Part shown: one piece after another, positions 1,141-19,905 of the stretch
Numbering within the stretch: the stretch's first letter is position 1
How the letters are laid out: every line of letters begins with the position of its first letter
Assembly (NCBI GenBank): GCA_023512255.1
Contig: JAILZY010000064.1
Location: 1-20,052, forward strand
Direction: 5' to 3'
Source of the DNA: a bacterium
GTDB lineage: Bacteria; SZUA-182; DTGQ01
DNA: 20,052 nucleotides
Made by a program: the position numbers and the translations under genes
Notes under the pieces: model-generated
Database searches by the model: none
What the model saw: only the letters and a program-made list of their open reading frames with translations
What the model was told of the DNA's origin: nothing

Positions 1141-1142
1141 CC

Positions 1143-4100: not shown

Positions 4101-4289
4101 CTTCGGGCTCTTCTCTTGAGAGGATATATGGTCTCAAGCATCCTGGTCTATCGCTCCGATAAGGGGAGATGGGAGAGCAGCTACAATTTCTTTAGACAAA
4201 CATCGGGTGGCAGGATAAAAATAGGAATAGGCCAGGGGTGTCTGGTTGATTTACTCTGGACCGAAGGTAGCAGATGTGAGAAGCAGTAA
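1143..4289 (+). CDS. Secreted M30 (hyicolysin)-like zinc metalloprotease with Ig/FN3-like domains
   Basis: 1048 residues. It has a signal peptide (about 1-31), then an FN3-like domain (about 47-135, with 'DSYRIYRAEG'). The protease domain carries HELQH at residues 308-312 and a third likely zinc ligand E333 in 'WLDETCSLLAEE', the HExxH...E spacing of M30-type enzymes. A long middle region is followed by a second FN3-like domain (about 760-865, 'YTLSLTAVDRAGNES'). The C-terminal region has two related motifs, 'GLNLVSYPI' (from 873) and 'GRNMVGGPI' (about 965), as seen at the ends of many large secreted bacterial proteins. It probably degrades extracellular protein or processes surface proteins. 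The start is 2 nt after the upstream stop, with AAGGATG as a likely ribosome site. Residues around 970-979 are a duplicated PILSE pair from a 15-bp tandem repeat. The family call is from motifs, so M30 rather than another gluzincin clan is likely but not proven. Confidence 0.82.
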   Translation: MTSKHCTINFSSLIVTAAIFFLCLSAGMSLAAVLAPTNPINDRGEPWERKVLSTASGMIHIQWRYESQEPPDSYRIYRAEGNKNPFATESRVQAATPWQSDLPSRYCFFRYLPEDEDEGKRFWFLVRAVKNGIESNNLDAESVVVDLPWIDGRLDPNSINFYVEDDQRGDSFLQESEKCPFCSQTNKTYFRLARAYLAFRGTHAAYYVDRDFGPPPDLEAIVNSFETEIYPTNLAYFGRDENSEFSDVDGNGQIIILLTKLGGPVGGYFNAEDKILGYRYQNRVSNCADMLYVSVDSPLLSIKGTMAHELQHMQHLEANVRRGALWEELWLDETCSLLAEEVNNLFSINLYCYPMMPNEISLTRFGYSDVHDRFGGCPIHWTDSQKNYEALLRVIAHYEQAALFGHYMEYNCSPATALSSLVEDPNQGLISVQNHLGFDFRQAFIDWTIANYLNPYTDSSHIRYHYTAKFPSGASALENHSVKPQAVLSTGWIKSPDQEPAWIERSLRDLCADYVLFPSNGLPHDHLHWEIRKINPEENVCHLAILDRSNQTKILLQDIADIPLFRPGNEARFGSGKFALTEADGQDLESCLIVSNLSSYQDSNYISYYECRAYLTRSPSVFQVKLIQADYEWTLKGPAADTENHRGISSIENNQARESAPLIRAGWLRVIIQFDQSMDEQSALSPILYFSAADNSLPQGAGAAAFQPAALNPWSKTVYPSDTWTGQVFIPQGQGGQLDGLARLCISRGKNFCQEPMEKEEQIALLIDTKEPLQPVISRITAYSASPAIIELDWSRSPEPDLAEYRLFGISPAPLVISLNDLSDPNHPSLRWIQGDAGIYTLSLTAVDRAGNESQASDPVSVGIGVEVPLSAGLNLVSYPIEPPFGYTSDLWLADLGLAAASLHRYQPKALAYETTYWSKEGKVQGSIFPILQDSGYLMYRHQAGRMTLSGPIRNRPLSLCRGRNMVGGPILSEPILSENESSYDFLRALLLRGYMVSSILVYRSDKGRWESSYNFFRQTSGGRIKIGIGQGCLVDLLWTEGSRCEKQ
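4049..4078 (+). repeat. Two exact 15-bp tandem copies inside the metalloprotease gene
   Basis: GCCGATTCTTTCAGA occurs at 4049-4063 and immediately again at 4064-4078. It stays in frame and adds one PILSE pentapeptide to the protein. It looks like a recent slippage or duplication event and is one of several such events in this window. Confidence 0.9.
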
Positions 4290-4321
4290 AGACAGAAGAT
4301 TGCGGGGAAAGGAGCGAAGGT

Positions 4322-5035
4322 ATGGAATTTGGGTATCGAATCTTTGATTCTTATCTGATCAATCAGATTGATCTGCCGCTGATCCAGATCTCGGTTCTTC
4401 GGACCTGCGAAGCCGATATCCAGCGGGTTAAAATCCTGGCCGATCTTATCAGATCAGCAGGCAAGCGGTTTATAATCCATCCTATGGATGTCAATTTATC
4501 TGATACTCAAAAGGTAGTTCGAGAACGGAATTTGAGCCAAGTGAAGCGGTTTGCTGAGCTGGCTGATCTTGGCCTAATCATCCATGATGAGCTACTGCCT
4601 GATCGGCAGAGGCTGCGGGGAGAATGGCTGGAAAACTACCGAGCCGGATTGGCAGAGCTAGAGCAGATCTGCCCTGTTTCCATTGAAAATGCCAGAGATT
4701 CACGTAATGCCCCTTGGTTCTGGCAGACCCTTGCCCGACAAATCACCTTTGATATTGGCCACTTCGAATCCGAAGGGATAGATTCTCTCGATCTTGTCAA
4801 CACACTAAGCCCTGAGCTTATCCAAAAAATAAACTTCATCCATCTGCATCGCTCGAATGGTCTAAAACCAAATGGCCTGATCGATCACTGGCCACTAACG
4901 CCAGAGTGTCGGGAGCTGAAGACCTTGCGGAAGCTGGCTGAGCTAAAACCTGATCTTAAGGTAATTCTTGAGCTCGATACCGCTCAAGATATTCTGGAAA
5001 GCAGACGAGCCTTGAGGCTGGAATCCCTCCTATAA
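4322..5035 (+). CDS. Xylose-isomerase-like TIM-barrel protein
   Basis: 237 residues resembling the sugar-phosphate isomerase/epimerase and AP-endonuclease-2 TIM-barrel superfamily. Candidate metal-site residues sit at the expected strand ends: E122 in 'VSIENARDS', D144 and H147 in 'FDIGHFES', H174 and H176 in 'NFIHLHRS', D188-H189 in 'LIDHWPL', and E217 in 'VILELD'. It is slightly short for the family (usually 250-300 residues), so some peripheral helices may be missing. A good Shine-Dalgarno AAAGGAG (4308-4314) lies 7 bases before the ATG. It follows the protease gene by 32 bases and precedes an MFS transporter by 62 bases, so it may be co-transcribed. The substrate cannot be deduced, and either a sugar-type isomerase or a nuclease-like member is possible. 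Confidence 0.75.
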   Translation: MEFGYRIFDSYLINQIDLPLIQISVLRTCEADIQRVKILADLIRSAGKRFIIHPMDVNLSDTQKVVRERNLSQVKRFAELADLGLIIHDELLPDRQRLRGEWLENYRAGLAELEQICPVSIENARDSRNAPWFWQTLARQITFDIGHFESEGIDSLDLVNTLSPELIQKINFIHLHRSNGLKPNGLIDHWPLTPECRELKTLRKLAELKPDLKVILELDTAQDILESRRALRLESLL

Positions 5036-6798: not shown

Positions 6799-7354
6799 GG
6801 CTGACTACCTCCTCTTCTTTTGATAGCTGAAATTGAAGTTATTAGTTGTTTGTTGTTGTTTGTAAAAGTTATCGAATCGTCTTTTTCTCTACTCAAAACC
6901 GCTTTTTACCCTTATCTATTCGCATAAAGCATGCCTTTTCAGACCAAAAAGCAAAAAATTATAAACCCTCCCGATAAAGCTAGATCGAGCTGGTTTTCTG
7001 GAATGCCGCCGCTGGGCTGCCAATGCCTACTGGCTCAGAGCGCTTCCCTAGAGATTACAAAATAGTTCCTAATCCAATTACAATTTTGTTATTTAAGGAC
7101 AGGAAATGTCCTATTCTTCTTTTCGTATCAGCACGCTCTTCTTCATCTTGACCAGAAGGTATTTCCAACTACTTGCTTATCTTAATCTTAGGAATAACAA
7201 GAGGATAACAAAAATTAAACCTAATGCTCGCCCTAAGCTGATAATTTTCCCGAAATGGTCGATAAATTCTACCGAAAAAAATCTTTATAGCCCATGATGG
7301 ATGATTCAGAAAATACAATCAGAGAATACAAAAGATGAGGAGATAGGGGTGGTT
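6799..7354. other. Long AT-rich intergenic region, no convincing gene
   Basis: This 556-base stretch separates the divergent membrane-protein and GH57 genes, so promoters for both are expected, but I see no strong -35/-10 pair. It holds a TTGTTTGTTGTTGTTTGT run (6846-6863). A more GC-rich patch (about 6968-7050) could fold locally, but I cannot match it to a riboswitch class. A 63-codon frame at 7106-7297 has a weak AAGGA site, but its composition is like the surrounding AT-rich DNA and it has no recognisable protein features, so I do not call it. Confidence 0.6.
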
Positions 7355-7357
7355 ATG
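7345..7357 (+). promoter_or_regulatory. Ribosome binding site choosing the GH57 start
   Basis: AGGGG at 7345-7349 lies 5 bases before ATG 7355. The upstream in-frame ATG at 7301 has no Shine-Dalgarno-like sequence before it. This favours 7355 as the real start. Confidence 0.55.
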
Positions 7358-9538
7358 AGAGTCTTTGAGGCCGTAGACCTTTCAATATTGAATAATGAAC
7401 CAGTATTAAAGACAAGCTACAATGAGACCTACTTTTGGCTCCTGCCCAGAGATCCCCGCACGGCTTACGCCATTTACGAAATCGGTGAGCAGACCCGAGA
7501 GCATCTTAGGAAAAGATTTGGAAATTATTTTTTCGACCACAATTATCTGGTGATGCGCGTCTATCAGGTTGATGGACAGGGAGAATTCAATGGTTTCAAT
7601 TACAATAGTAAGTTTGAGGTCGATGATTTTCTCGGAGACAAAAACAGCTATTGGCTAAGCTTGGCGCCTGACCACGAGTATGTGGCCGAGCTGGGTTACA
7701 AAACCCGCAATACTACGAATTTTGAGATGGTAGTTCGCTCAAACCGCATCCGAATGCCCCGCGGCCAAGAACAGAAAGAGCAACGGTATGCAGACTGGAG
7801 AGAGATTCATCTCCCTGACCCTTCTCACGAGGTGAACATGCCGCAGGAGAAATGGCGATATAACTACTACTGGTATCGAAAGCATGGCCGCATTCTCCAT
7901 CCGGTGGAAGAAGAGAAGGGTTACTGGATTCTTCTTTTGCATAATCATCTTCCCTTTGTCAGACATCCCGAATATAGGGTTTCTATTGAAGAGCAATGGC
8001 TTTTTGAGGCCATAACTTCAGTTTATACCCAACTCCTTTTACTTTTCTGGAATATGGAGAAGGAGGGAGTAGATTTCCGAATGACCATAAGTTTAAGCCC
8101 TCCTCTGATTAACATGCTTCAGGATCCGCTACTTCAGAAGCGCTACCGGGTTCATCTGCGCGAGTTGATCGCTTTTACGGAAAAAGAATACGCCAACTCC
8201 TGGGATAAACCTTTCCGGCAGACCGTAGAGCAAACCCTGCACCGATTCTTTCAGGCCAGGAAGGTCTTCGAGACCTACGGAGGAGACCTTACCCGCGGCT
8301 TTCGGAATTTCCAGAATCAGGGGAAGCTTGAGATTATCACCTGTGCAGCCACCCATGCTATTCTTCCCTTCTATCTTCACTATCCTCAAATGGTGCAGGC
8401 ACAGCTTCGGACAGCTATTTGGGAATATGAGCGGGTTTTTGGCCGAAAGCCGAAAGGAATGTGGTTGCCGGAAAATGCCTATCATCCGGCACTGGACGAA
8501 TTTTTGCTCTCCGAGGGAATCTGCTGGACCGTAGTCAATACCCATGCTCTCCGCCAGGGTGATACCCGCTGCTTTTACGATGTCAATGCTCCCGTGATCA
8601 CCGAGCACGGGTTGTGCATCTTTGGCATTGATGACCAGACTAAAGGCCAGGTCTGGTCCAGACAGCATGGTTTTCCTGGTGATCCGCGATACAAGGAATG
8701 GTATCGGGATGTAGTCTGGGACGCGGATTGGGATTATATTCCCGAATACTTCAAAGTGGCTGGAGTTCGACGAAATAGTGGGCTCAAGTATTACCGGGTA
8801 ACCGGCAAGGATGTTCCTCTGGACAAAAAGGATTACTACCGCCCTGCTTGGGCAGCACAGGCCGCGGCAGATCATGCCAGCCAGTTTGTCCGTGACCGTG
8901 AGGTGCAGGCTCGCCAATTCTGGCAGAAAAACCACCGCAAACCTATCTTTTTCTCCGCTTATGATGGTGAGCTGTTCGGCCACTGGTGGGAAGAGGGCCC
9001 ATTGTGGCTTGAGCTGGTTCTAAAAAAGATGCTCTACGATCAAACCGCGGTGCGGCCAGTAACTCCCTCAGAGTATCTGTCCGAGCAGCACCGCCACCAG
9101 CGCCTCACCCCAGACATATCAAGCTGGGGAGAGGGGGACTACTTTGCCACCTGGTTGAGCAGCCGGCCTGAGCGGTCGAATGCCTGGATCTATCGGCACC
9201 TGTTCAAGCTTATTGAGCTGATGAGCAGACTTGCTTCAGAGCGATATGCGGCCACTGGCCTTGAGGAGCGAGCCCTTAATCAGGCTGCCCGTGAGTTGAT
9301 GCTGGCCCAAAGCAGTGATTGGGGATTTTTAATTGAAACCGGCCAAGCTGTCCACTATTCACAGATGCGGATTAGACAGCATCTGGATTGGGCTGATCAA
9401 CTCCTACAGCAGGTCCAAAGCGGCTCAATTGATGAGAAGCTTGTGACTACCTTAGAATACGCCCATAATATCTTTTCAAAAGATATGAACTTTCGGATAT
9501 TTTCCCGACAGGGCATCCCAAAACCAGAGCAAGGTTAA
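7355..9538 (+). CDS. DUF4912-GH57 alpha-glucan enzyme, branching-enzyme type
   Basis: 727 residues from ATG 7355 (745 if ATG 7301 is used). The N-terminal part (about residues 20-140, 'YFWLLPRDPRTAYAIYEI', 'YWLSLAPDHEYVAELGY') is a DUF4912 domain. The rest is glycoside hydrolase family 57, beginning 'GYWILLLHNHLPFVRHPE'. The likely nucleophile is the Glu of 'WLPENAYHP' (codon 8471-8473). The likely acid/base is the Asp of 'SAYDGELFGHWW' (codon 8963-8965). A DUF1957-like helical C-terminus ends in '..SKDMNFRIF'. These match GH57 1,4-alpha-glucan branching enzymes, which cut and re-attach alpha-1,4 chains as alpha-1,6 branches in cytosolic glycogen or starch. Exact specificity (branching versus amylase or transferase) is inferred from family context. 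It is convergent with the Rpn gene, 15 bases apart, and no other glycogen gene is adjacent. Confidence 0.9.
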   Translation: MRVFEAVDLSILNNEPVLKTSYNETYFWLLPRDPRTAYAIYEIGEQTREHLRKRFGNYFFDHNYLVMRVYQVDGQGEFNGFNYNSKFEVDDFLGDKNSYWLSLAPDHEYVAELGYKTRNTTNFEMVVRSNRIRMPRGQEQKEQRYADWREIHLPDPSHEVNMPQEKWRYNYYWYRKHGRILHPVEEEKGYWILLLHNHLPFVRHPEYRVSIEEQWLFEAITSVYTQLLLLFWNMEKEGVDFRMTISLSPPLINMLQDPLLQKRYRVHLRELIAFTEKEYANSWDKPFRQTVEQTLHRFFQARKVFETYGGDLTRGFRNFQNQGKLEIITCAATHAILPFYLHYPQMVQAQLRTAIWEYERVFGRKPKGMWLPENAYHPALDEFLLSEGICWTVVNTHALRQGDTRCFYDVNAPVITEHGLCIFGIDDQTKGQVWSRQHGFPGDPRYKEWYRDVVWDADWDYIPEYFKVAGVRRNSGLKYYRVTGKDVPLDKKDYYRPAWAAQAAADHASQFVRDREVQARQFWQKNHRKPIFFSAYDGELFGHWWEEGPLWLELVLKKMLYDQTAVRPVTPSEYLSEQHRHQRLTPDISSWGEGDYFATWLSSRPERSNAWIYRHLFKLIELMSRLASERYAATGLEERALNQAARELMLAQSSDWGFLIETGQAVHYSQMRIRQHLDWADQLLQQVQSGSIDEKLVTTLEYAHNIFSKDMNFRIFSRQGIPKPEQG

Positions 9539-9553
9539 GCATTTACCCCTAGC

Positions 9554-10492
9554 TCAGGAGATGCCAGATAATTTACTCAAAAGCTCCTGATAAGTATCCT
9601 CACTCAGGGACTTATCTGCACGAAGCTTTTCCAAATAGGCTTTCGCCTGCTCACCGCTTATAATCCCTTCACGGTAAAGATCGTATAGATTCCTAGCTAT
9701 CCCTTGCTGAATCCCCTGCTCTCGTCCCTGAGCAAAACCCTGGGCAAGACCCTGAGCACGTCCCTGCTCAAGACCCTGCTCAATGGCCTTGATTATTGCT
9801 CCCCGCTGGTCCTGGATAAACATCTCCCGGCGCTCCTGGTCATCCAGCTCCTCACGGGTCAAGTTAGCTTTATTGGCTATCTGAAAAGCCTTCGATATTG
9901 GCTGTTCAATGGCCAGGGTTTGCGGGATAAACTCTAGCGAGCCTGCATTCTTGAGAAAGTAGATCCATTTATCGGTAATATCAGCCAATTGTTCTTCGGT
10001 TTTGTTGAATTTAGGCAACTCCACAAATACTAGCTCGAGATCGGAATTTTTATACTCAAAGAATTCATTCCGCTCTATGAGACGAAAGCTGCTAATGATC
10101 TGGGTTGTTTCATTAAACATGATAAAATCGGTAATGGTAATGGCAATAACCGGATTGAGCTGAAGGTATTTTTCCGCACTCTCAATCTGAGTAGAATAAG
10201 ACTTAGCGGCATTGTAGAGCACCCGCTTTTCAAAGCCAGCCACATTCAACACTTGCATCTCAATGATAAACTCCCGACCATCTCGGCTCCTAGCCTTGAC
10301 ATCGAGATATGTATCCTTCATCCCCTTGATCTTCGGAGCCTGATAAGGGTCAATTATCGTCAGATCAACAATCTCATGCTCCGGGCTAAACCGCAGTATG
10401 GCATTGATGAATGAAAGCAGAATATCTTTGCTCTCCGAGCTGCCGAAAATTCTCTTAAAGGCAAAATCCGTCTTGGGATTCAAAAACCGCAT
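9554..10492 (-). CDS. Rpn-family PD-(D/E)XK nuclease/transposase protein
   Basis: 312 residues of the PD-(D/E)XK transposase-nuclease family (Rpn, PF12784 type). 'NPKTDFAFKRIFG' at residues 5-17 is the family signature. The catalytic core is D64 in 'LDVKARSRDG' with E78 and Q80 in 'FIIEMQ', the expected D...ExQ arrangement. Residues 238-265 are seven tetrapeptides of the form xQGx (EQGL, EQGR, AQGL, AQGF, AQGR, EQGI, QQGI), as in many members, likely a flexible or coiled linker. Characterised Rpn proteins are DNA endonucleases that promote RecA-independent recombination; a mobile or housekeeping role is not shown here. A Shine-Dalgarno AAGGGGG (10504-10510) is 11 bases from the ATG. It appears intact, and I see no terminal inverted repeats around it. 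Confidence 0.88.
   Translation of the reverse strand: MRFLNPKTDFAFKRIFGSSESKDILLSFINAILRFSPEHEIVDLTIIDPYQAPKIKGMKDTYLDVKARSRDGREFIIEMQVLNVAGFEKRVLYNAAKSYSTQIESAEKYLQLNPVIAITITDFIMFNETTQIISSFRLIERNEFFEYKNSDLELVFVELPKFNKTEEQLADITDKWIYFLKNAGSLEFIPQTLAIEQPISKAFQIANKANLTREELDDQERREMFIQDQRGAIIKAIEQGLEQGRAQGLAQGFAQGREQGIQQGIARNLYDLYREGIISGEQAKAYLEKLRADKSLSEDTYQELLSKLSGIS
9698..9781 (-). repeat. Seven 12-bp coding repeats (Q-G tetrapeptides)
   Basis: Seven in-frame 12-nt units encode xQGx tetrapeptides in the Rpn-family gene. Units vary at the first and fourth codon but keep Gln-Gly, so selection at protein level is plausible. Repeat number commonly differs between members of the family. Confidence 0.85.
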
Positions 10493-10607: not shown

Positions 10608-12008
10608 TTAAGCTCCATACAAAACCCACCGATTGGCCACAGTAATGCCGCTGAGCAAAGCACCGACAATCCCCACCAGCCCCTGATCAGTTCCACAGAC
10701 ATAAAGATTTTTAATCTCTGTTCGGCCATCAGGCAACTTATCCGGCGTCCCATAGACCGCGCCTTTCTGTCGAGCGGTAAACCGCTGAATTGTCCTCGGG
10801 GTAAAAGTATCACAAGCTACAATATGCCTCCCAAGGCCACGAATAAACCGCTCGGCTTTCTCAACTGACTCTCTCAGACAGTGCTCCTTCTGCCTCCGAT
10901 ATTCATCCTGGTCCAGCCTGCTCCAAAGATCGAAATTAGCCAAATGGGTAAGACGCACTAGGCCTTCTGTGGACATCTGCTCATCTTCTTGGTAGTTATT
11001 GGGACAGCAAATCACACCGCTCAATGAATCGATCAGACCATTTGGTTTTCGGTAGACAAAGCGCTCGGTATCATTGTAAAACAGAATGGTAGTCTCAAAA
11101 CCTAGAGATTGGGAGGGCAGGCAATCAAGCATAAGAATAGATTCAACAAAGGCTATCTCCCCCGGCTTTGGCTCTTTGGCCTCCGCCGGCCAAAAAGAGC
11201 AAAGGGAGCGGGTTTCGGGAAGACCAACTGTCGAGATAATAACCTTAGCTTGCATTATCCGGCCATTGGCCAGGTGAACTTCAGCCACACGCCCCTGATT
11301 AATAATTAGCTTGTGGACCTGGCAGCCATAGCGCAACTCCCCTCCGCTCTCCTGGTATTTATCGACCAGAAGCTGAATCAACTGTCTCATCCCAAGCTTT
11401 GGCCGGGCAAATCCTTCAGTAAATATGCTCCTGAAGAGAATGGAAAATTGAACAAAGTCCATATCATCTTCCCGGCAATTTCCGTAAAACATTATCGGGC
11501 AAAGAAGCATCTCGATCAAGAGAGGATCGGACAGGAATTGCTTCAAAACCTTGCGGGCTGAAACCATCTCTCTCCCTGGCGAGGAGAGCTCAGCGTAGTC
11601 AGCTAGAGAGTTAGTGAGCTTCAGAAAGCCATCAACCTGGCTGGGGAATTTGTCGGCGATTTCCTGAACTAGGAGCTGAAAGTCATTAGTGAATGACAAT
11701 TCCTTTTCTGGAAAAATGATGCGGGAAATTCGCTGAGGGCAAAGCCTTAGATCATCGTGGGACAGCCGAAGCTGCCGCAAGATCCTGGCCAAGGGAGCTG
11801 ATTTTACCGAGCGGGGCACATAGTTAGTCACAGCATGCAGGCCAACGTCCAGGATGCGGCCCTGGAAAGGATACCAGGAATTCAACCCTCCTGCCCTGAC
11901 CTGCTTCTCCAGAATGCAGACCCGACGACCAAAGTGGGCCAGCCGAATCCCGGCGGCCAGACCCGATAGCCCAGCACCAATGATGAGGACTTCATATTCA
12001 TAATCCAT
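10608..12008 (-). CDS. Phytoene-desaturase-like (CrtI-type) FAD oxidoreductase
   Basis: 466 residues. The N-terminus holds the dinucleotide-binding motif 'IIGAGLSGLAAG' (9-20) with E34 ending strand 2 and the 'RAGGLNS' element (38-44). The C-terminus has the second FAD signature 'LYVCGTDQGLVGIVGALLSG'. Together these mark the CrtI/CrtISO/RetSat superfamily of flavin-dependent desaturases, saturases and isomerases acting on long polyene chains. It lies at the downstream end of the co-directional ole/KS/ACP block, separated from the ACP by 276 bases containing a dispersed repeat element. No phytoene synthase or other carotenoid gene is visible, so a lipid or hydrocarbon substrate linked to the ole pathway is a reasonable inference. 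The carotenoid role is not excluded. The start ATG has no strong Shine-Dalgarno site. Confidence 0.87.
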   Translation of the reverse strand: MDYEYEVLIIGAGLSGLAAGIRLAHFGRRVCILEKQVRAGGLNSWYPFQGRILDVGLHAVTNYVPRSVKSAPLARILRQLRLSHDDLRLCPQRISRIIFPEKELSFTNDFQLLVQEIADKFPSQVDGFLKLTNSLADYAELSSPGREMVSARKVLKQFLSDPLLIEMLLCPIMFYGNCREDDMDFVQFSILFRSIFTEGFARPKLGMRQLIQLLVDKYQESGGELRYGCQVHKLIINQGRVAEVHLANGRIMQAKVIISTVGLPETRSLCSFWPAEAKEPKPGEIAFVESILMLDCLPSQSLGFETTILFYNDTERFVYRKPNGLIDSLSGVICCPNNYQEDEQMSTEGLVRLTHLANFDLWSRLDQDEYRRQKEHCLRESVEKAERFIRGLGRHIVACDTFTPRTIQRFTARQKGAVYGTPDKLPDGRTEIKNLYVCGTDQGLVGIVGALLSGITVANRWVLYGA

Positions 12009-12037
12009 GTTGCAGGCTTAGTTTCTCTTTTCCATTT

Positions 12038-12075
12038 ATTTATTATCACTACCTGAATTTATTATCACTACCTGA
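12038..12075. repeat. Two exact 19-bp tandem copies upstream of the oxidoreductase
   Basis: ATTTATTATCACTACCTGA at 12038-12056 is repeated exactly at 12057-12075. It sits about 30 bases upstream of the oxidoreductase start and directly beside the dispersed palindromic element, so it could be part of that element's boundary or a local slippage product. Confidence 0.9.
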
Positions 12076-12085
12076 CACTTTTATC

Positions 12086-12219
12086 GTCATTTCCGCGAAA
12101 GTAGTAATCCATGTATGGTTGCAGCAAACTTCTGGATTCCCGCCTACGCGGAAATGACCTCTGGTGCGCCTGAGGACCTCTACCAATCTGATTTGGATTC
12201 CCGCCTACGCGGGAGGGAC
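12086..12219. repeat. REP-like dispersed palindromic element, three arms
   Basis: Arm 1 (12086-12111, - orientation of the motif) and arm 2 (12133-12158) form an inverted repeat: 21 of 26 positions pair, with the outer 12 bases GTCATTTCCGCG perfect. A third, direct copy of the right-hand arm is at 12194-12219 ('TGGATTCCCGCCTACGCGG' shared with arm 2). This motif is well known as a dispersed repeat in many bacterial genomes. It separates the ACP gene from the oxidoreductase gene and could form a strong RNA hairpin there, attenuating or stabilising the operon message. Confidence 0.85.
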
Positions 12220-12284
12220 ATGAAATGCCTGCACTTAGAGGGCATAGAAAAAACGGGAGATAAAATGTGTCCGGTATTAAGTAT

Positions 12285-12536
12285 TTATTTATCCTTGAGC
12301 AGGGGTTCTAGGTAGGCTACGCAGCTATTTAAGGTAGCTAGCTTAGGATAGTCTTCCTCTGGAACCTCCACCTTATACCGCTTCCGAAGCTCCATGATGA
12401 TATCCAGAAAATCCATAGAATCAAGGTTTATCTGATCCCTGATCCGTAGATCTGGATCAAGCTGACTTGTATCCTCATCAGGAACAATTTCGGAAATGAT
12501 ATCTAAAATTGAGGCCTTAATCTCTTCTTGAGTCAT
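12285..12536 (-). CDS. Discrete acyl carrier protein
   Basis: 83 residues, the usual ACP length, acidic, with the 4'-phosphopantetheine attachment serine S40 in 'INLDSMDFLDI' (compare DSLD/DSM in ACPs). Predicted helices before and after match the four-helix ACP fold. It needs a phosphopantetheinyl transferase from elsewhere in the genome. A clear Shine-Dalgarno GGAG (complement of 12544-12547) is 7 bases from the ATG. It lies just downstream of a FabF-type ketosynthase and in line with oleABCD, which argues for a dedicated carrier for a specialised acyl chain rather than the housekeeping ACP. That partnership is inference. Confidence 0.92.
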   Translation of the reverse strand: MTQEEIKASILDIISEIVPDEDTSQLDPDLRIRDQINLDSMDFLDIIMELRKRYKVEVPEEDYPKLATLNSCVAYLEPLLKDK

Positions 12537-12630
12537 AGAGTATCTCCCTCATTATGTTATTCTCCTTAAAGAAGCTCAGCCAAGTTGCGGGGTTTATATT
12601 TCCAGGTATCCACTTTTCCCATTATTTTTA

Positions 12631-13872
12631 TCATGTTTCGAACCGTTTGACAATCACTACCGAATTGATCCCGAGCATGCCAAAAGAATTATTGAGGATA
12701 TAATCAATTCTCTCAACTGGCTGTGGCTTTGTAACCACCAGGTTGTTCAAACTGCATTCCGGGTCCAAATTTTCCAGATTGATGGTTGGATGGATGAGAA
12801 AATCCCAAAATGAAGGAAGATTTCCGGCTAGCTCCAGAGCGCCGGCCGCGCCCATAGTATGTCCGATATAACTTTTCGTATTATTGATATACGTTTTTGA
12901 ACTTTGACCAAAAACTCGGCGAATAGCCTTTGCTTCCTCGATATCCCCTATCTGCGTAGCAGTGGCATGGCTGCTGATCAGGTCGATCTCATGGGGAGCA
13001 ATATGTGCCCGCTCAAGGGCCAACTCCATGCACTCGGCCTGCCGCTCTCCGCTTGGGAGAACAAAGTCCAGGGCATCGGAATTGATGGCATAGCCGACAA
13101 TCTCCCCGTAGATCCTGGCTCCACGGCTCAGGGCATCTTCAAGGCGCTCAAGGGTGAAGATACAGCCTCCTTCTGAGACCACGATCCCATTGCGATCTCG
13201 GTCAAAGGGGCGGCAGGCTTTAGTCGGATCTTCATGACTGGCCAAAGCTCCCTGACTCTTGAAACTGGCAAAAATGCCAAAGGTGTGAATACTTTCAGAT
13301 ACTCCGCCAGCCAAAGCCAGATCCACCTCGCCTAAGCGTAGCATCTGCACCCCCTGAATCAATCCACAGTTTCCAGCAGCACAGGCAGCCCCAAGGGTAT
13401 AGTGCGGCCCACTGATGCCCATATTAACCGACAGCTCACCTGCGGGATTATTAGCCACAGTCCTGGGATTATGATGATGGGTCCAGTATCGAAGATCATA
13501 GCCAAACTGCTGAAGATTATAAATTTCATTTTCTGTCTCTACATTGCCATGTTCGGTAATGCCAAGATAAATCCCAACTCTTGACTTATCAATCCGACCA
13601 AGATCAAGACCAGCATCCCTAACCGCTTCCCATCCGCAGTAGATAGCTACCGATCCGGCTCGTGTTCCACGACGGACCTCTTTTCTCTTTTGGTACTTCA
13701 ACATATCGAAATTGCAGACTCCAGCCAGAACTTCTCCCATGTAGCGGGTTTCAAACTTGCGAACCCCGGATCTGCCCGTCAACAGGCTCTGTCTAAATTC
13801 CTCAAGGGAGTTACCATTCGGCGCAGTCAATCCAATACCAGTAATAACAACTCGGGTCTGATTATTAGGCAT
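12631..13872 (-). CDS. FabF-type beta-ketoacyl-ACP synthase
   Basis: 413 residues, full KAS II length. The catalytic triad is visible: C164 in 'GAACAAGNCG', H302 in 'SSHATATQIGD', and H338 with K333 in 'NNTKSYIGHTMGAAGALE'. It would condense an acyl chain with malonyl-ACP by decarboxylation, in the cytosol. The intact Cys-His-His rules out a chain-length-factor-like dead subunit. It sits between oleD and a discrete ACP, with no ketoreductase, dehydratase or enoyl reductase alongside, so any reductive steps must come from general fatty acid synthesis or be absent. The role is likely to extend or initiate the acyl chain fed to OleA. The Shine-Dalgarno site is weak (GAAGGGA about 14 bases upstream). 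Confidence 0.9.
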   Translation of the reverse strand: MPNNQTRVVITGIGLTAPNGNSLEEFRQSLLTGRSGVRKFETRYMGEVLAGVCNFDMLKYQKRKEVRRGTRAGSVAIYCGWEAVRDAGLDLGRIDKSRVGIYLGITEHGNVETENEIYNLQQFGYDLRYWTHHHNPRTVANNPAGELSVNMGISGPHYTLGAACAAGNCGLIQGVQMLRLGEVDLALAGGVSESIHTFGIFASFKSQGALASHEDPTKACRPFDRDRNGIVVSEGGCIFTLERLEDALSRGARIYGEIVGYAINSDALDFVLPSGERQAECMELALERAHIAPHEIDLISSHATATQIGDIEEAKAIRRVFGQSSKTYINNTKSYIGHTMGAAGALELAGNLPSFWDFLIHPTINLENLDPECSLNNLVVTKPQPVERIDYILNNSFGMLGINSVVIVKRFET

Positions 13873-13897
13873 TTTGGATAATTTTTCCCTTCTGTAA

Positions 13898-13947
13898 TTT
13901 TTACCTTCTTACTTTGTGTTTTTACCTGTGTTTTGGCTGTTTTTACC
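13898..13947. repeat. Three TTTTTACC boxes at exact 21-bp period
   Basis: TTTTTACC occurs at 13898-13905, 13919-13926 and 13940-13947, so each copy is offset by exactly 21 bases, two helical turns. On the transcribed strand it reads GGTAAAAA. It fills the 79-base gap between oleD and the ketosynthase gene. It could be a degenerate tandem repeat or a protein-binding array. The low complexity of the DNA means chance cannot be ruled out. Confidence 0.55.
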
Positions 13948-13951
13948 CTTT

Positions 13952-14950
13952 TTATTTATTCTTAGAGTAAAAGGCCACCGATCGCCTCAGCCCCTCTTCC
14001 ATACTAACCTCTGGGATATAGTTCAACCGCTCTCTAGCCTTCCTGATATTAAAATAGTGCGAGGTCCCAAGTTGTGAGGCCAAAAACCTGGTCATGGCTG
14101 GCTCTCCGCTGAGGTGAAAGGTATGGTAGTATTTCTCTATTGCCCAGCCAATCTTTTTAGCTACGGCTAAAGGGATTGATTTTTTAACAGTAGGAAGCCC
14201 CAGGTTCTGAAGGAACTGGTCGATCCACGGCCACAAGAGCACCGGCTCGCCCTGACTGATAAAGAAAACCTCACCAGCCACTCCTGATGATGGATCAGCC
14301 AGTCGGTCAGCAGCCAGAAGATGGGCCTGAGCCACATTTTCCACATAGGTAAGATCAACTTTGTTTCGGCCATCACCCACCCTGATCAATTTCCCCTGCC
14401 TAGCCCGCTCAAGTAGCCTGGGAATGAGGTTAGTGTCCTCAGGTCCCCAAACCAGATGAGGTCGAAGAGCCACAGTGCTCAAGCCCTCCCGCCCATTGGC
14501 CAAAAGAACCATCCGCTCAGCCATAGCCTTGGTTTCAGGGTAGGGGCAAAGGTATTCTTGGGGATAGGGGGCGGTCTCATCAAGGTTGATCTGATCAGAC
14601 TGATCATGGACCACGCTTGGTGAGCTGGTATAGACAAGTCTTGGCACGCGCTGCTTCTGACATCCGGCAATAATCGTGCGGGTGCCGATCACGTTAGTCT
14701 GGTAAAATTCCTCCCACGGCCCCCAGATTCCGGTCAAAGCAGCCACATGGAAAACACAGTCTACCCCCCGACAGGCATCCTCTACGATCTTTGAGCAGCA
14801 GATATTCCCTTGAACAGTTTCTACGCCGATCTTTTGCAACTCAGGGTATGTTCGCCTGCCCAAAACTCTGACCTGATCCCCTCGCTCAATGAGCTTTCTC
14901 ACGATCCATCTGCCGATAAAGCCTCCTCCACCAGTTACCAGGGCTTTCAT
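13952..14950 (-). CDS. oleD: OleD-like NAD(P)H-dependent beta-keto acid reductase
   Basis: 332 residues of the extended short-chain dehydrogenase (epimerase/3beta-HSD-like) type. The Rossmann glycine motif 'TGGGGFIGRWI' starts at residue 6. The active-site pair is Y137 and K141 in 'YPETK', with serines at 109-112 in 'YTSSPSV'. In the Ole pathway OleD reduces the 2-alkyl-3-ketoalkanoic acid made by OleA to the 3-hydroxy acid. The family is broad, so the specific OleD call depends on its location directly after oleA, oleB and oleC on the same strand. Shine-Dalgarno GAGGTG (complement of 14959-14964) is 8 bases from the ATG. The gap to oleC contains a duplicate of the oleC 3' end. Confidence 0.88.
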   Translation of the reverse strand: MKALVTGGGGFIGRWIVRKLIERGDQVRVLGRRTYPELQKIGVETVQGNICCSKIVEDACRGVDCVFHVAALTGIWGPWEEFYQTNVIGTRTIIAGCQKQRVPRLVYTSSPSVVHDQSDQINLDETAPYPQEYLCPYPETKAMAERMVLLANGREGLSTVALRPHLVWGPEDTNLIPRLLERARQGKLIRVGDGRNKVDLTYVENVAQAHLLAADRLADPSSGVAGEVFFISQGEPVLLWPWIDQFLQNLGLPTVKKSIPLAVAKKIGWAIEKYYHTFHLSGEPAMTRFLASQLGTSHYFNIRKARERLNYIPEVSMEEGLRRSVAFYSKNK

Positions 14951-15019
14951 CTCATCTTCACCTCACTTCAAACATCTAATCCCATACCTATCTTGGCTCG
15001 CCTATTAATAAAATGGTTT

Positions 15020-15098
15020 TCAGACAGCCAGCTTTTCCCGAAAAATTTTAGCATTATGCCGAATATCAACTGGAAAAGCAGGATGAAATAAAAAATCC
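15020..15098 (-). pseudogene. Duplicated 3' fragment of oleC
   Basis: Bases 15021-15098 match 15157-15234 inside oleC at 77 of 78 positions, offset 136. On the - strand the copy encodes 25 residues of the OleC C-terminus ('..[11 protein letters not shown]') and then a TGA where intact OleC has Trp. It has no start codon and lies in the gap between the oleC stop and oleD. It is a partial duplicate rather than a gene. Between the two copies is a CTGCG/CGCAG dyad (15100-15120). Confidence 0.92.
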
Positions 15099-15137
15099 GC
15101 TGCGCACTTGTGTTACGCAGTCAGCAAAAAAGAACCG

Positions 15138-16784
15138 CTAAAGCCTCCTCTCGGCCCAGACAGCCAGCTTTTCCCGAAAAATTTTGGCATTATGCCGAAT
15201 ATCAACTGGAAAAGCAGGATGAAATAAAAAATCCTCGATTTGTCTAGTCAGGGGGCTCTTTTGCCCAAGCTCTCGAAGCTCATTAATGAGCCGGGCGGCC
15301 TCAGCCTTCCCCTTTGGCATTCGCCCCCCTCGGAGTTCGACAACAATCAACGGCTTCTGATTCGGCCTTTTCCCAAGCCCAACCAGAGCAGTGCGAAATA
15401 CCTCAGGATGCTGATTAAAAATAGCCTCACAGGGAATGGTAAACAAGGTCCCTTTTGGGGTAACTACCCGATGGGCCATCCGGCCACAAAACCAAAGCCG
15501 ACCAGCATCATCCAGATAACCCACATCCCCCATGCGATGCCAAACATTCTGGCCATCGAAGACCTTGGCCAAAGCCGTAGCCTCTCCTCGATTATAATAC
15601 TCATGAGTTACCACTGGACCACAAACCACAATCTCGCCAATCTCTCCCCTTGGGAGCTCCTTAACCTCGCTCCAGCTACAAATGGCCCTATCTGTAATTT
15701 CGATAATCCTGACTCTAATCGTAGGAAGAGGTAAGCCAACGCAGACTCCTGCTCCAGAGCAGGTTTTCTCTTCTGTCTCAGCCAGAATTTCCCGGCCACT
15801 AATCGAGGCCACCGGCAGGGCTTCCGTAGCTCCATAGGGAGTGTAGGTATTGGCATCCTCGGCCAAGATAGCAGTAAAAGACTTGAGAATAGCGGCCGGC
15901 ACCGGAGCCCCAGCCATGAGAATACGCCGTAGGCTAGGCAGCCTGATCCCCTCCTTTAGGCAGTATTCTGTAACTCTCCTCCAGATAGCCGGAGAGCCAA
16001 AGCTATTGGTAACTCCTTGATTATTAATGGCCTCAACGATTTTTACCGGATCAACCTGGCTAGGCTTGGTCGGATCCATCTCAGGAATAATGCAGGTCAT
16101 GCCCATAGCTATGCTAAACAAGGCAAATAGGGGAAAACCAGGCAAATCTACCTCACCCGGCCGAATGCCGTAATGCTGCTGAATCAATCTGACCTGGGCA
16201 TCAAACATGCCATGAAGATAAACCACTCCCTTCGGGCTCCCCGTGCTGCCAGTGGTAAAGAGAATAGCAGCCATATCCGTATCCTTAGCTTCTGCAACCT
16301 CATACGGCTTCCACACCTTAGGGCGGACATGATCAAGAGGCACAGCGCCGATCCAGGGGAATTTCGACCCAACCATCACCGAACAGCGCACAGATCGAAA
16401 ATATCGGCGATAAATGAACCGAGCCAAATGGACCATTGGGACGGCCACCAGACCTTCTGGCTCAACCGAAGCAATACAGTCTAGGAGATTCGATTTGCCC
16501 ATGCCCGGATCAATCAGGATCGGAACCGCACCGATCTTAAAGAGAGCAAAGGTCAGGGCGATAAATTCAAGACTGGGCCTGACCATCAATAATACCCTCA
16601 TCCCTTTTCGGAAACCAAGGTTAGTGAATCCGTGGGCATAGCGATCAGCCTCCTCGTTCAGTTGCCGGAAGGTAAGGTGAGTGTAGGAAACCCTCCCCCA
16701 CCTATCCCTACTGTGGGGAAAGACCACCGCCCGCTGATAGGGAACTGTTTGAGCCATCTTAGGCAGGTAAGCGGCAATATTCAT
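15138..16784 (-). CDS. oleC: OleC, beta-lactone synthetase (AMP-binding)
   Basis: 548 residues, full length for OleC, of the acyl-adenylate-forming ANL superfamily. The P-loop-like motif 'LFTTGSTGSPKGVVYLHG' is followed by 'YTPYGATEALP', the 'MGDVGYLDDAGRLWFCGR' hinge region and a C-terminal lysine in '[17 protein letters not shown]', typical of OleC. OleC activates the 3-hydroxy acid with ATP and closes a cis-beta-lactone instead of forming an acyl-CoA. The start ATG has no strong Shine-Dalgarno. Upstream is a 75-base gap with a 15-bp tandem duplication. It is the third gene of the oleABCD run and is not fused to oleB. The 3' end is partly duplicated downstream. Confidence 0.93.
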   Translation of the reverse strand: MNIAAYLPKMAQTVPYQRAVVFPHSRDRWGRVSYTHLTFRQLNEEADRYAHGFTNLGFRKGMRVLLMVRPSLEFIALTFALFKIGAVPILIDPGMGKSNLLDCIASVEPEGLVAVPMVHLARFIYRRYFRSVRCSVMVGSKFPWIGAVPLDHVRPKVWKPYEVAEAKDTDMAAILFTTGSTGSPKGVVYLHGMFDAQVRLIQQHYGIRPGEVDLPGFPLFALFSIAMGMTCIIPEMDPTKPSQVDPVKIVEAINNQGVTNSFGSPAIWRRVTEYCLKEGIRLPSLRRILMAGAPVPAAILKSFTAILAEDANTYTPYGATEALPVASISGREILAETEEKTCSGAGVCVGLPLPTIRVRIIEITDRAICSWSEVKELPRGEIGEIVVCGPVVTHEYYNRGEATALAKVFDGQNVWHRMGDVGYLDDAGRLWFCGRMAHRVVTPKGTLFTIPCEAIFNQHPEVFRTALVGLGKRPNQKPLIVVELRGGRMPKGKAEAARLINELRELGQKSPLTRQIEDFLFHPAFPVDIRHNAKIFREKLAVWAERRL

Positions 16785-16795
16785 GGAAAATCAAT

Positions 16796-16824
16796 ATCCA
16801 GTAGTCATGAATCCAGTAGTCATG
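16796..16824. repeat. 15-bp tandem duplication in the oleB-oleC gap
   Basis: ATCCAGTAGTCATG at 16796-16809 is repeated at 16811-16824, separated by one A (period 15). It lies about 12 bases upstream of the oleC ATG, where it could shift the spacing of translation signals. Confidence 0.9.
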
Positions 16825-16859
16825 CTCGAAGTTTCATTATCAAACCCATATTCTGGGAT

Positions 16860-17789
16860 TCAAATAGGATTGTTATTCAAAGGATTATTATTCAAAAATT
16901 CCCTCATCAGCGGCACAATCCGCTCATGAGCATCCTCGACCACATAATGCCCCGCATCCTCAAATACCTGAACGCGGGCTTCGGGGAAAAGCTCCTGCCA
17001 AGTCTTCAGAAAGGAATAATTAAAACAAAAATCCTGCCCTCCCCACAGAATCAACACTGGTCGGTGGCGAAATTCCGGCAGCCTCTTTTGGATGGCCTCA
17101 AGAATAGGGTAGCTTTTGTCTTTTGGCCGCATCGGAATGTCTTGAACAAAACATAAGTGAGCGATCCGATTTTCATAGCTTCGATAAGGGGCAAGATACC
17201 CTGCCCTGACCTGTGGTGTCATCCGCTCACGATGCCGACAGGCTAGGTAAATAGCCAAGCCGGCAAAGGCATTAAACCTGCGGATAGCCACTCGGCCAAA
17301 GATGGGAATCCGACAAAGGCCAATCTGCCAAGGCATTCTGGATGACAGAAAAGCGGCTGTATTGAAGATAATTAGCCGCCTGATTTTGTCTGGATGTCGA
17401 ACGGCATATCCCATGCCAATTGCCCCTCCCCAGTCGTGCATAGCCAGGGTAATATTTTTAAGGTTCAGGGTCTCAAGCAGAACTTCCAGGTTATCAATAT
17501 GCTGCCCCAAAGTATAGGGATACTTTTGCGGTTTATCGGACAGACCACACCCCATGTGATCCGGCACGATGATCCGATAAGAGTCGGCCAGCCCACTGAC
17601 CAAGTGCCGATAGTAGAAAGACCAAGTGGGATTGCCATGAAGCATGACCACACACTCACCTGATCCCTCATCAAGATAGTGGTAATTATACTTCCCAAGC
17701 CGAAGGAAATGGGAGCGAAAAGGATAAAGCTCTCTGAACGGCTCAAGGTTTACCAAACTCACGTCTCTTTGTCTCTTCCTACCACTCAA
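16860..17789 (-). CDS. oleB: OleB, beta-lactone decarboxylase (alpha/beta hydrolase)
   Basis: 309 residues from a TTG start, haloalkane-dehalogenase-like alpha/beta hydrolase. The oxyanion motif 'HGNPTW' (51-56), nucleophile D119 in 'MHDWGG', acid D253 in 'WGGQDF' and base H281 in 'DAGHYV' form the expected triad. OleB decarboxylates the beta-lactone from OleC to a cis-olefin. The Asp nucleophile is the known OleB state. The TTG start overlaps the end of oleA by 11 bases. A GTG at 17762 is an alternative start with AGGAAG 12 bases upstream, giving 300 residues and no overlap; neither start has an ideal ribosome site. The C-terminal tail 'NNNPLNNNPI' comes from a 15-bp tandem duplication (16866-16895) and is probably dispensable. 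Confidence 0.9.
   Translation of the reverse strand: MSGRKRQRDVSLVNLEPFRELYPFRSHFLRLGKYNYHYLDEGSGECVVMLHGNPTWSFYYRHLVSGLADSYRIIVPDHMGCGLSDKPQKYPYTLGQHIDNLEVLLETLNLKNITLAMHDWGGAIGMGYAVRHPDKIRRLIIFNTAAFLSSRMPWQIGLCRIPIFGRVAIRRFNAFAGLAIYLACRHRERMTPQVRAGYLAPYRSYENRIAHLCFVQDIPMRPKDKSYPILEAIQKRLPEFRHRPVLILWGGQDFCFNYSFLKTWQELFPEARVQVFEDAGHYVVEDAHERIVPLMREFLNNNPLNNNPI
16866..16895 (-). repeat. 15-bp tandem duplication at the oleB 3' end
   Basis: AGGATTGTTATTCAA (16866-16880) and AGGATTATTATTCAA (16881-16895) differ at one base. The pair is in frame and adds an extra 'LNNNP' to the OleB tail. Confidence 0.88.
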
Positions 17790-18837
17790 CCCCTAACATA
17801 CAGCAAGTAATGCCGCTTCCAATACCCAAGAGAGCAGCCCTTTGTCCAGCTTTCAACATCCCCTGATCAATCCCAATAGCCATAGTTATTGGCAAAGACA
17901 CCGACCCCATATTTCCGAGGTATTCAAAGGTAGAATAATCCTTCTCCATATCCAGCTCAAGAGCAGTAAACAAGGCTCTTCGATGGGCACTGCCTACCTG
18001 ATGACAGAAGAAGCGGTCTATATCTTCACTCTTCCATCCAAGCTCCCTTTTCGTATCGACCCAACTCCTGCGGGCCAGATAACATCCCTCCCGCAAGAGT
18101 CTTTCCGAATCGGTTTTCATTGTCGGCTGACTAGTTGCATCTAGGGCACTGTCTGCTCCCCCCGCCCCTCCACCTCGGCATAGGTCATTGTGCTGAGAGA
18201 CCGTGCGAGCTATGCCTCCAAGAAGCCTGTGGCCAGTTTTCGATATTCGGGCATGGGTCAAAATAGCTGCCGCAGCCCCAGAGCCGATGGTCAAGGAAGC
18301 AAAAGCACCTTTCAGCTTCTCCCTCGATGGGGCAGGGTCTGCAAGAAGCCGGGCAATGGTTGTCTCAACCAGGGGACGGCTATGCTCTCCAGCCACAACC
18401 ATACCGGCTAAAATCTGCCCTGATTCGATCATACTGGCTATGACCACCAGACCATTGATAAACCCCAGACAGGCGTTCGATAGGTCAAAGACCATAGCGG
18501 ATTCGCCAAACCCCAGGGCATGGTGAACTACCGTGGCTGTTGCCGGCTCAAGAAAATCTCGGCTGACTGCGGCATAAATCAGACATTGGATCTGCTCTGG
18601 AGCTAACGATGCCCTCTCAAGAGCCTTCTTCCCAGCCTTGATACTACCCTCACTAGGCAGGGCGCCCTTCTTCCAAAAGCGGCGTTCCCTGATTCCAGTC
18701 ATCAATTCTAGCCGGCCATAGGGCAGTTTCAATTTATCATAAAGTGGCGAAAGTCGCTGCTCAAGCTCATCTGAAGTTACCACATCCTCAGGCAGCTCAT
18801 AGCCAAAGGATTCAATACAGACATGTTGAAAGCGCAT
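17779..18837 (-). CDS. oleA: OleA, head-to-head acyl condensing thiolase
   Basis: 352 residues of the thiolase/KAS III fold. The nucleophile C123 is in 'LSNACLGFING', H279 in 'FFCHQVG' and N309 in 'YLGNMGS'. E97 in 'SRDFLEPATA' lies 26 residues before the Cys, the spacing of the OleA catalytic glutamate that removes a proton from the second acyl chain (E117/C143 in the Xanthomonas enzyme). 'LCRGGG...MKTDSERLLREG' also matches OleA. It joins two fatty acyl thioesters head to head with loss of carrier to give a beta-keto acid, in the cytosol. It is the first ole gene of the - strand run and follows a 462-base AT-rich gap. Only a poor Shine-Dalgarno-like GAGAAG directly precedes the ATG. Confidence 0.94.
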   Translation of the reverse strand: MRFQHVCIESFGYELPEDVVTSDELEQRLSPLYDKLKLPYGRLELMTGIRERRFWKKGALPSEGSIKAGKKALERASLAPEQIQCLIYAAVSRDFLEPATATVVHHALGFGESAMVFDLSNACLGFINGLVVIASMIESGQILAGMVVAGEHSRPLVETTIARLLADPAPSREKLKGAFASLTIGSGAAAAILTHARISKTGHRLLGGIARTVSQHNDLCRGGGAGGADSALDATSQPTMKTDSERLLREGCYLARRSWVDTKRELGWKSEDIDRFFCHQVGSAHRRALFTALELDMEKDYSTFEYLGNMGSVSLPITMAIGIDQGMLKAGQRAALLGIGSGITCCMLGVEW

Positions 18838-19299: not shown

Positions 19300-19839
19300 C
19301 TAGATAAGCAGACTGCTTATCAGCGACACAAGACCAACCGAAGTTGCCGCAGGAGTTGTTGGGATCAGAGTCGGCAGAGGGGTAATTGAGGTTACTGGAA
19401 TAGGAACAGTGGTAGTTGGAGTCGGAACTGGAGTATAGGTAAGCCCGACAAGGCTTAACGGGGTATAGGTGATCAGCGGAGCCAGAGGGGTAGTGACTAA
19501 AACATTGGCTGGGACAGTTGCCGCCACAGGAACCGTTGGAACCAGGCTGGTAACTCCAACCCCAGCCGTAGTAACCGCAGGAGCAGTGGGCAGAGTAGGA
19601 GCGGGGAAGAGAGAGCTGGTGGTCAGCGGTGCATGAGCAGACCTGAAGGGGCCAAATCCTAAGAGAGCCGGTGGTAAAACGGGAACATAACCAAATAGCC
19701 CAACCCCGGCCAGCGGATTAAAATAGGGCCCAAAGGGCCCAAACTGTGCATCCGCTCTTGGAACAAGCAAGGCTAGTAGCAGGAAAAGCATGATACCAGC
19801 CCAAAATATATTCTTCTTGAAAAACTCTCCTTTATTCAT
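19300..19839 (-). CDS. Secreted Pro/Thr/Val-rich low-complexity protein
   Basis: 179 residues from the ATG at 19839. The signal peptide has a basic start (MNKGEFFKKN), a hydrophobic core and a probable cleavage near 'ADA-QFGP'. The mature part is almost free of charged residues: a Gly/Phe/Pro-rich section ('QFGPFGPYFNPLAGVG') followed by Pro/Thr/Val-rich sequence to a hydrophobic end. This suggests an extracellular or outer-surface structural or adhesive protein, not an enzyme. I recognise no family. The start is set by AGGAGG (complement of 19846-19851) 6 bases upstream; an upstream in-frame ATG at 19860 would put that site inside the gene. The gene upstream ends 66 bases away on the same strand and has a similar composition. 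Confidence 0.75.
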   Translation of the reverse strand: MNKGEFFKKNIFWAGIMLFLLLALLVPRADAQFGPFGPYFNPLAGVGLFGYVPVLPPALLGFGPFRSAHAPLTTSSLFPAPTLPTAPAVTTAGVGVTSLVPTVPVAATVPANVLVTTPLAPLITYTPLSLVGLTYTPVPTPTTTVPIPVTSITPLPTLIPTTPAATSVGLVSLISSLLI

Positions 19840-19845
19840 ACCTAT

Positions 19846-19851
19846 CCTCCT
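19846..19851 (-). promoter_or_regulatory. Shine-Dalgarno choosing start 19839
   Basis: AGGAGG on the - strand, 6 bases before ATG 19839. The signal peptide fits this start, so the earlier ATG at 19860 is unlikely. Confidence 0.8.
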
Positions 19852-19905
19852 TGAAATCAAAGAGAAAATCTTACCGGTCTCAAGCTATACCCGGACAAGA
19901 TCAAG

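Follow-up and report, generated by a model that had tools for sequence, protein, structure and literature searches.

The window analysed here is the whole of one contig (C61; JAILZY010000064.1, 20,052 nucleotides) of assembly GCA_023512255.1, a bacterial genome (GTDB lineage Bacteria; SZUA-182; DTGQ01) of 3.83 Mb that is 96.6% complete. It carries a hydrocarbon biosynthesis locus in which a full set of ole genes is followed by genes for a ketosynthase (KS), an acyl carrier protein (ACP) and a flavin adenine dinucleotide (FAD) enzyme of the phytoene-desaturase superfamily, here termed CrtIa. The genes are read on the minus strand from position 18837 to 10608 in the order oleA-oleB-oleC-oleD-KS-ACP-CrtIa, with successive intergenic gaps of -11, 75, 187, 79, 94 and 276 bases. 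All seven open reading frames (ORFs) are intact and co-directional, as an earlier note made from this DNA alone had described. The features are:

17779..18837, minus strand: oleA, thiolase-like enzyme for head-to-head Claisen condensation (PRK09258, structure alignment, motifs)
16860..17789, minus strand: oleB, alpha/beta-hydrolase of the haloalkane-dehalogenase type, predicted beta-lactone decarboxylase (family match, motifs)
15138..16784, minus strand: oleC, AMP-binding beta-lactone synthetase (NCBIfam olefin beta-lactone synthetase models)
13952..14950, minus strand: oleD, 2-alkyl-3-oxoalkanoate reductase of the short-chain dehydrogenase/reductase type (best NCBIfam match OleD)
12631..13872, minus strand: KS, dedicated FabF-type ketosynthase (intact Cys164-His302-Lys333-His338)
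12285..12536, minus strand: ACP, discrete acyl carrier protein (PF00550, DSM phosphopantetheine site)
10608..12008, minus strand: CrtIa, FAD enzyme of the phytoene-desaturase/CrtISO superfamily, predicted acyl-ACP substrate (PF01593)
15021..15098, minus strand: 78-base copy of the oleC 3' end in the oleC-oleD gap (99% identical direct repeat of 15157-15234)

The 78-base repeat is a recent local duplication that plays no functional part. A weak terminator-like hairpin (15120-15100) lies in the same gap; this hairpin and the 276 bases before CrtIa leave a single seven-gene transcript putative. For oleB, listed from a TTG at 17789, the GTG at 17762 is more likely the true start. Between ACP and CrtIa, palindromic repeats of the form TGGATTCCCGCCTACGCGG(G/A)A (12086-12158 and 12194-12219) resemble a dispersed extragenic repeat.

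The reactions of OleA to OleD are known for the family, and the four clustered homologues in the window retain the catalytic residues. OleA scores 457 bits against NCBIfam PRK09258, above the cut-off, and aligns over its full length with its nearest solved structures, the 3row set of OleA entries, which we take to be the Xanthomonas campestris enzyme. Catalytic motifs are present in OleA (NACLGF, LEPATA, CHQVG and YLGNMG), OleB (HDWGG and GHYV), OleC (TTGSTGSPKG) and OleD (GGGGFIG and YPETK). Two olefin beta-lactone synthetase models rank second and third for OleC behind PRK09274, with 617 and 581 bits that fall under the genus-tuned NCBIfam cut-offs of those models, and the best NCBIfam model for OleD is OleD itself, at 375 bits and likewise under its genus-tuned cut-off. 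With all four enzymes clustered and their motifs intact, the locus resembles the classical oleABCD sets of Xanthomonas, Micrococcus and Stenotrophomonas, from which it differs by the KS, ACP and CrtIa genes of the seven-gene cluster and by a second locus elsewhere in the genome.

The KS retains its catalytic residues (C164, H302, K333 and H338) and shares 32.5% identity with the genome's own FabF. Judged by its sequence, it belongs to a clade of its own (branch support 100/99) and is no housekeeping FabF; identity among loci of this clade is about 67-89%, and about 70% across phyla. A separate housekeeping locus in the same genome encodes homologues of FabH, FabG, ACP and FabF. The ACP of the cluster matches PF00550 and carries the DSM phosphopantetheine motif. 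CrtIa has the amino-oxidase/CrtI fold and the FAD motif of its superfamily, and its AlphaFold2 model (mean confidence score pLDDT 92) finds 4rep and 4dgk as top Foldseek matches, with TM scores of about 0.58-0.76. Its best NCBIfam match is carot_isom (CrtISO), at 100 bits against a cut-off of 587, and crtI_fam reaches 60 against 238; it thus scores far under every carotenoid-enzyme cut-off, with CrtISO the nearest family. Since CrtISO is a redox-neutral isomerase, desaturase and isomerase roles are both possible. CrtIa has the fold, the FAD-binding motif and its best family matches in common with the carotenoid flavoenzymes CrtI, CrtISO and CrtD, but its genomic partners are fatty-acid enzymes, in a locus without carotenoid genes. 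Profile matches, structures and motifs together uphold, at family level, the gene names proposed in the earlier note.

We compared the window genome (G000) with one of the same genus (G001), one of the same family (G002) and Nitrospina sp. LS_NOB (G013). The seven-gene order is identical in G001 and G002. The earlier note would have abandoned its idea of an extended ole cluster had the last three genes not been conserved beside oleABCD in relatives; in both they are. Within the cluster, KS and ACP rank near the top in conservation (KS 89%, ACP 92% and OleA 80% identical to G001), and OleB is 84% identical to G001 and 75% to G002. In G001 two genes, one of the GmrSD restriction type and one encoding a HEPN protein, are inserted between ACP and CrtIa (L043 8127-9896). 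In a further genome, G003, KS-ACP-CrtIa is retained on a contig of 12 kb that has no ole genes.

The earlier note missed the other half of the module, which lies elsewhere in the same genome. In Nitrospina sp. LS_NOB the KS-ACP-CrtIa triad is followed by CrtIb-(unknown protein)-FabG-FabZ-FabI, where CrtIb is a second CrtI-family flavoenzyme. The window genome groups CrtIb-FabG-FabZ-FabI with a phosphopantetheinyl transferase (PPTase) gene on contig C151, and its CrtIb, FabG, FabZ and FabI are 50-66% identical to the Nitrospina genes. The same CrtIb-FabG-FabZ-FabI-PPTase locus occurs in G001 and G002, on longer contig stretches without ole genes. Given this second locus, the pathway here comprises about 12 genes in two loci.

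A wider scan, made with a KS alignment, covered 84,980 species genomes and yielded 80 kept loci. These come from Nitrospinota, Planctomycetota and genomes labelled Nitrospirota, with a single genome each labelled Myxococcota and Pseudomonadota (the latter being G003). Where contigs were long enough for the test, ACP follows KS in 70 of 77 loci and CrtIa lies downstream of KS in 58 of 67. A contiguous run of 11 genes, oleA-B-C-D-KS-ACP-CrtIa-CrtIb-FabG-FabZ-FabI, is found at L102, L128 and L238 (genome G704), at the first of which a related PPTase is also nearby. L087 has the same run, though the search picked up no FabZ at this locus, and partial runs occur at L089, L091, L113, L121 and L239. 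As the order is kept in G001 and G002 and partly or wholly across phyla, the arrangement is not a product of chance. In a broad sample the KS clade was present in 15 of 386 genomes, from nine families; KS searches of viral contigs and of plasmids gave no match. As an observation apart, the ole-KS cluster at L087, in a genome labelled Nitrospirota, encodes OleB and OleC as a single 848-amino-acid fusion (320-2866).

For one supplier of unusual chains to Ole enzymes, the evidence is experimental. In Shewanella oneidensis, mutants in the type I polyunsaturated fatty acid (PUFA) synthase Pfa no longer make the polyunsaturated olefin C31:9, and the chain used by OleA of this species is predicted to be 16:4 (PMC6463001). 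That Pfa supplies the polyunsaturated chain of C31:9 is proven for this organism, the chain being a predicted 16:4 n-3 (PMC6463001, PMC4882568), and Shulse and Allen linked Pfa-like clusters to ole (PMC3098273). The earlier note, which has known ole clusters working on ordinary acyl-CoA or acyl-ACP, leaves out this documented Pfa-Ole route to C31:9 (PMC6463001, PMC3098273, PMC4882568).

We used the PfaD family as a marker of the Pfa synthase known to feed Ole, and scored it together with OleA and the KS clade in 199 Planctomycetota genomes that had not been selected for the module. The KS clade occurs in 40 of these genomes (all at least 60% identical), OleA in 71 and PfaD in 31. Every KS-positive genome also has OleA (40/40; Fisher p 8e-23, to be read with the caution on independence given below), and KS and PfaD never overlap (0 of 199). 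The 71 OleA-positive genomes thus divide into 40 with KS only, 27 with PfaD only, none with both and 4 with neither. In 19 of the 40, no more than 10 kb separates the KS gene from oleA; for 15 of the 27, PfaD and OleA are on one contig at a distance of 5-39 kb. A tree of OleA sequences sorts almost perfectly in the same way: 19 of 20 PfaD-partnered OleAs fall in one 100/100 clade that contains no KS-partnered OleA, and the window OleA stands outside this clade. The four OleAs with neither partner are placed among KS-partnered sequences (two), in the Pfa clade (one) and beside standard OleA (one), as would be expected if some assemblies are incomplete and one organism has a classical Ole pathway. 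Of the 29 module genomes from outside Planctomycetota that were checked, 28 have no PfaD (the window genome, G002, G003, G013 and 24 others). The only exception, G001, has two PfaD-family matches in modular polyketide synthase (PKS) surroundings (L221 10309-14142 and L222 904-10380). One of the two is a FabD-PfaD didomain and both have a modular PKS context, so that they are apparently of the trans-acyltransferase (trans-AT) type, and the seeming exception to exclusivity probably falls away.

This recurrent linkage, the presence of OleA in 40 of 40 genomes and the exclusion of PfaD substantiate the earlier note's view of KS, ACP and CrtI-like enzyme as a dedicated extension tied to Ole. Another account is that the locus makes an ordinary Ole olefin from housekeeping chains and the extra KS and ACP are redundant fatty acid synthase (FAS) genes. 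Xanthomonas Ole pathways do draw their chains from the core FAS (PMC6463001), and the window genome has its separate housekeeping FAS locus. Yet the KS forms a distinct clade, keeps its roughly 70% identity across phyla, ranks with ACP among the best conserved proteins within the genus, and shows strict partner exclusivity with PfaD, all of which makes this account very improbable.

Since the module always occurs with OleA and never with PfaD, it is most simply read as a substitute supplier. We put at about 70% the probability that the locus combines the Ole pathway with half of a dedicated type II module making special, most likely polyunsaturated, chains. The link between module and Ole is strong; the feeding of OleA by the module, the polyunsaturation of the chains, the roles of CrtIa and CrtIb and the exact product are inferred. 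On our best reading, the module takes the place of Pfa and passes polyunsaturated chains, bound to ACP, on to OleA, for a polyunsaturated olefin that is perhaps C31:9. The PPTase would activate the ACP, and the KS, with FabG, FabZ and FabI from the second locus, would elongate the ACP-bound chain; in these families, KS, FabG, FabZ, FabI, ACP and PPTase are together sufficient for elongation. CrtIa from the window and CrtIb from the second locus, the most obvious candidates for double-bond chemistry, would introduce or reposition double bonds during or after elongation. OleA would then condense two such chains head to head, OleD reduce the 2-alkyl-3-ketoacid, OleC close the beta-lactone and OleB remove CO2; the product would be a polyunsaturated long-chain olefin like hentriacontanonaene (C31:9). 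In this way the module would play the part that Pfa has in Shewanella-type producers. The wider proposition has slightly better than even odds: that this is a wholly type II, Pfa-independent pathway in which two CrtI-family flavoenzymes desaturate or isomerise ACP-bound chains, and that the polyunsaturated Ole hydrocarbons of Nitrospinota, Planctomycetota and other phyla, where it would be widespread, depend mainly on it for their supply.

The flavoenzymes might instead act after Ole, with KS and ACP giving ordinary or slightly altered chains and CrtIa and CrtIb desaturating the finished olefin, as CrtI does phytoene. The substrates of CrtI and CrtISO are free hydrophobic hydrocarbons, and the folds nearest to CrtIa are those of carotenoid desaturases. 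In most loci, however, CrtIa follows ACP, and in Nitrospinota it stays with KS-ACP where ole is elsewhere. The exclusion of PfaD, moreover, holds for the module as marked by its KS and not only for the flavoenzymes, which points to chain supply; we consider action on the finished olefin unlikely. Somewhat less likely still is that the module has a product of its own (a polyene, a pigment precursor or phospholipid PUFA) and stands beside ole only through shared regulation. The module is indeed not adjacent to oleA in most Nitrospinota and many Planctomycetes, but OleA is present in all 40 module genomes of a phylum sample not selected for the module, the OleA phylogeny follows the partner, and several unrelated lineages have the contiguous 11-gene run.

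Several points weigh against a polyunsaturated chain supply by the module. FabI is an enoyl reductase, and with it in the module the chain may be fully or partly saturated. No CrtI-family enzyme is known to act on a fatty acyl-ACP. PfaD is an imperfect marker that also matches trans-AT PKSs (a Bacillus subtilis control and G001), and the mutual exclusion of KS and PfaD goes back to a small number of evolutionary switches (partner labels change 3-5 times on the OleA tree), so that Fisher p-values overstate independence. The window organism and the KS-clade genomes are likened to C31:9 makers by their genes, and the Desulfotalea psychrophila clusters discussed below are likened to the window module by their published description. 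Finally, CrtI-like proteins of anammox bacteria, which are not orthologous, gave no lycopene in Escherichia coli, and their operons gave no new fatty acids there (PMC4790861).

Compared with the Pfa-Ole systems of S. oneidensis and Geobacter bemidjiensis, which lead to C31:9, the window would follow the same principle of OleABCD fed by a dedicated synthase and not only by housekeeping FAS, with ole and synthase genes often linked. It differs in that the proposed supplier consists of discrete type II enzymes and two CrtI-family flavoenzymes instead of the multidomain PfaA-D, and the two suppliers never meet in the Planctomycetota sample. The window genome itself lacks PfaD and has the predicted dedicated synthase together with OleA.

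Anammox bacteria provide another comparison, as the earlier note had pointed to a similar mix of enzymes proposed for their ladderane lipids. Recognised by hydrazine synthase, nine anammox genomes are among the 199, and OleA and the window KS clade are absent from all nine. Their candidate clusters (kuste3603-3608 type) bring together the same kinds of enzyme (ACP, FabZ, FabF and CrtI-like), in the order FabZ-KS-degenerate KS-CrtI-like with ACP detected in one, and differ by non-orthologous genes, a degenerate second KS and a radical S-adenosylmethionine (SAM) gene. The second KS has Val163/Asn298/Lys328/Glu333 (V/N/K/E), the published residues of Kuste3606; the window has no such enzyme, and its sole KS is canonical. 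Identity to the window proteins is 29-34% for KS and at most 27% for the CrtI-like enzymes, with separate KS clades. Orthology is ruled out by identity, tree and degenerate KS, and the analogy is superficial, one of enzyme kinds without common descent. That the locus makes cyclised lipids, whether of the ladderane type or another, is hence barely credible, although anammox clusters with these same enzyme kinds have been proposed to do so (PMC2649909, PMC4790861): the anammox KS and CrtI-like proteins are no nearer to those of the window than housekeeping enzymes are, and the degenerate KS is missing here as OleA and the KS clade are in the nine anammox genomes.

The closest precedent is a proposal of Rattray et al. 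in 2009, here extended. Although it has no Pfa, D. psychrophila produces C31:8 and C31:9, and a role in anaerobic PUFA synthesis was proposed for its type II FAS (FASII) clusters with phytoene-dehydrogenase-like genes (PMC2649909). Like the window module they contain phytoene-dehydrogenase-like genes, two with adjacent locus tags (DP2405 and DP2406); they differ in also having radical SAM genes, and the 2009 paper did not make the link to ole (PMC2649909). We found no open-access paper joining this type II module to ole genes, most subscription papers being outside the search. What is new is an Ole hydrocarbon pathway variant with a probable type II supplier of its own.

Which enzymes stand behind the Pfa-free polyunsaturated chains of D. 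psychrophila (C31:8/C31:9) has been a question since 2009 (PMC2649909). The genome pattern names a concrete set of 11-12 genes, a predicted stand-in for Pfa, in relatives of the cultured Gimesia and Nitrospina. If the prediction is true, polyunsaturated chain synthesis would have a second biochemical solution, the carotenoid-desaturase superfamily would gain a new role, and a trait in the membrane lipids of nitrite oxidisers and planctomycetes would come to light. Sukovich and co-workers reportedly described C31:9 from Planctomyces (Gimesia) maris in 2010. In our sample, a Gimesia genome (G093) has KS and OleA and lacks PfaD.

Upstream of oleA, 19300-19860 (minus strand) encodes a protein that is rich in Pro and Gly, begins with a signal-like N-terminus and matches no Pfam family; it has a counterpart in G001 (L043 16707-17267, minus strand). 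Directly downstream of CrtIa, 9554-10492 encodes a putative transposase of the PD-(D/E)XK (Rpn-type) family, and 7301-9538 a GH57 branching-enzyme-like protein with DUF4912. Further along, 184-5035 holds three ORFs (318, 1048 and 237 amino acids) without Pfam match, followed by an ATG22/MFS transporter.

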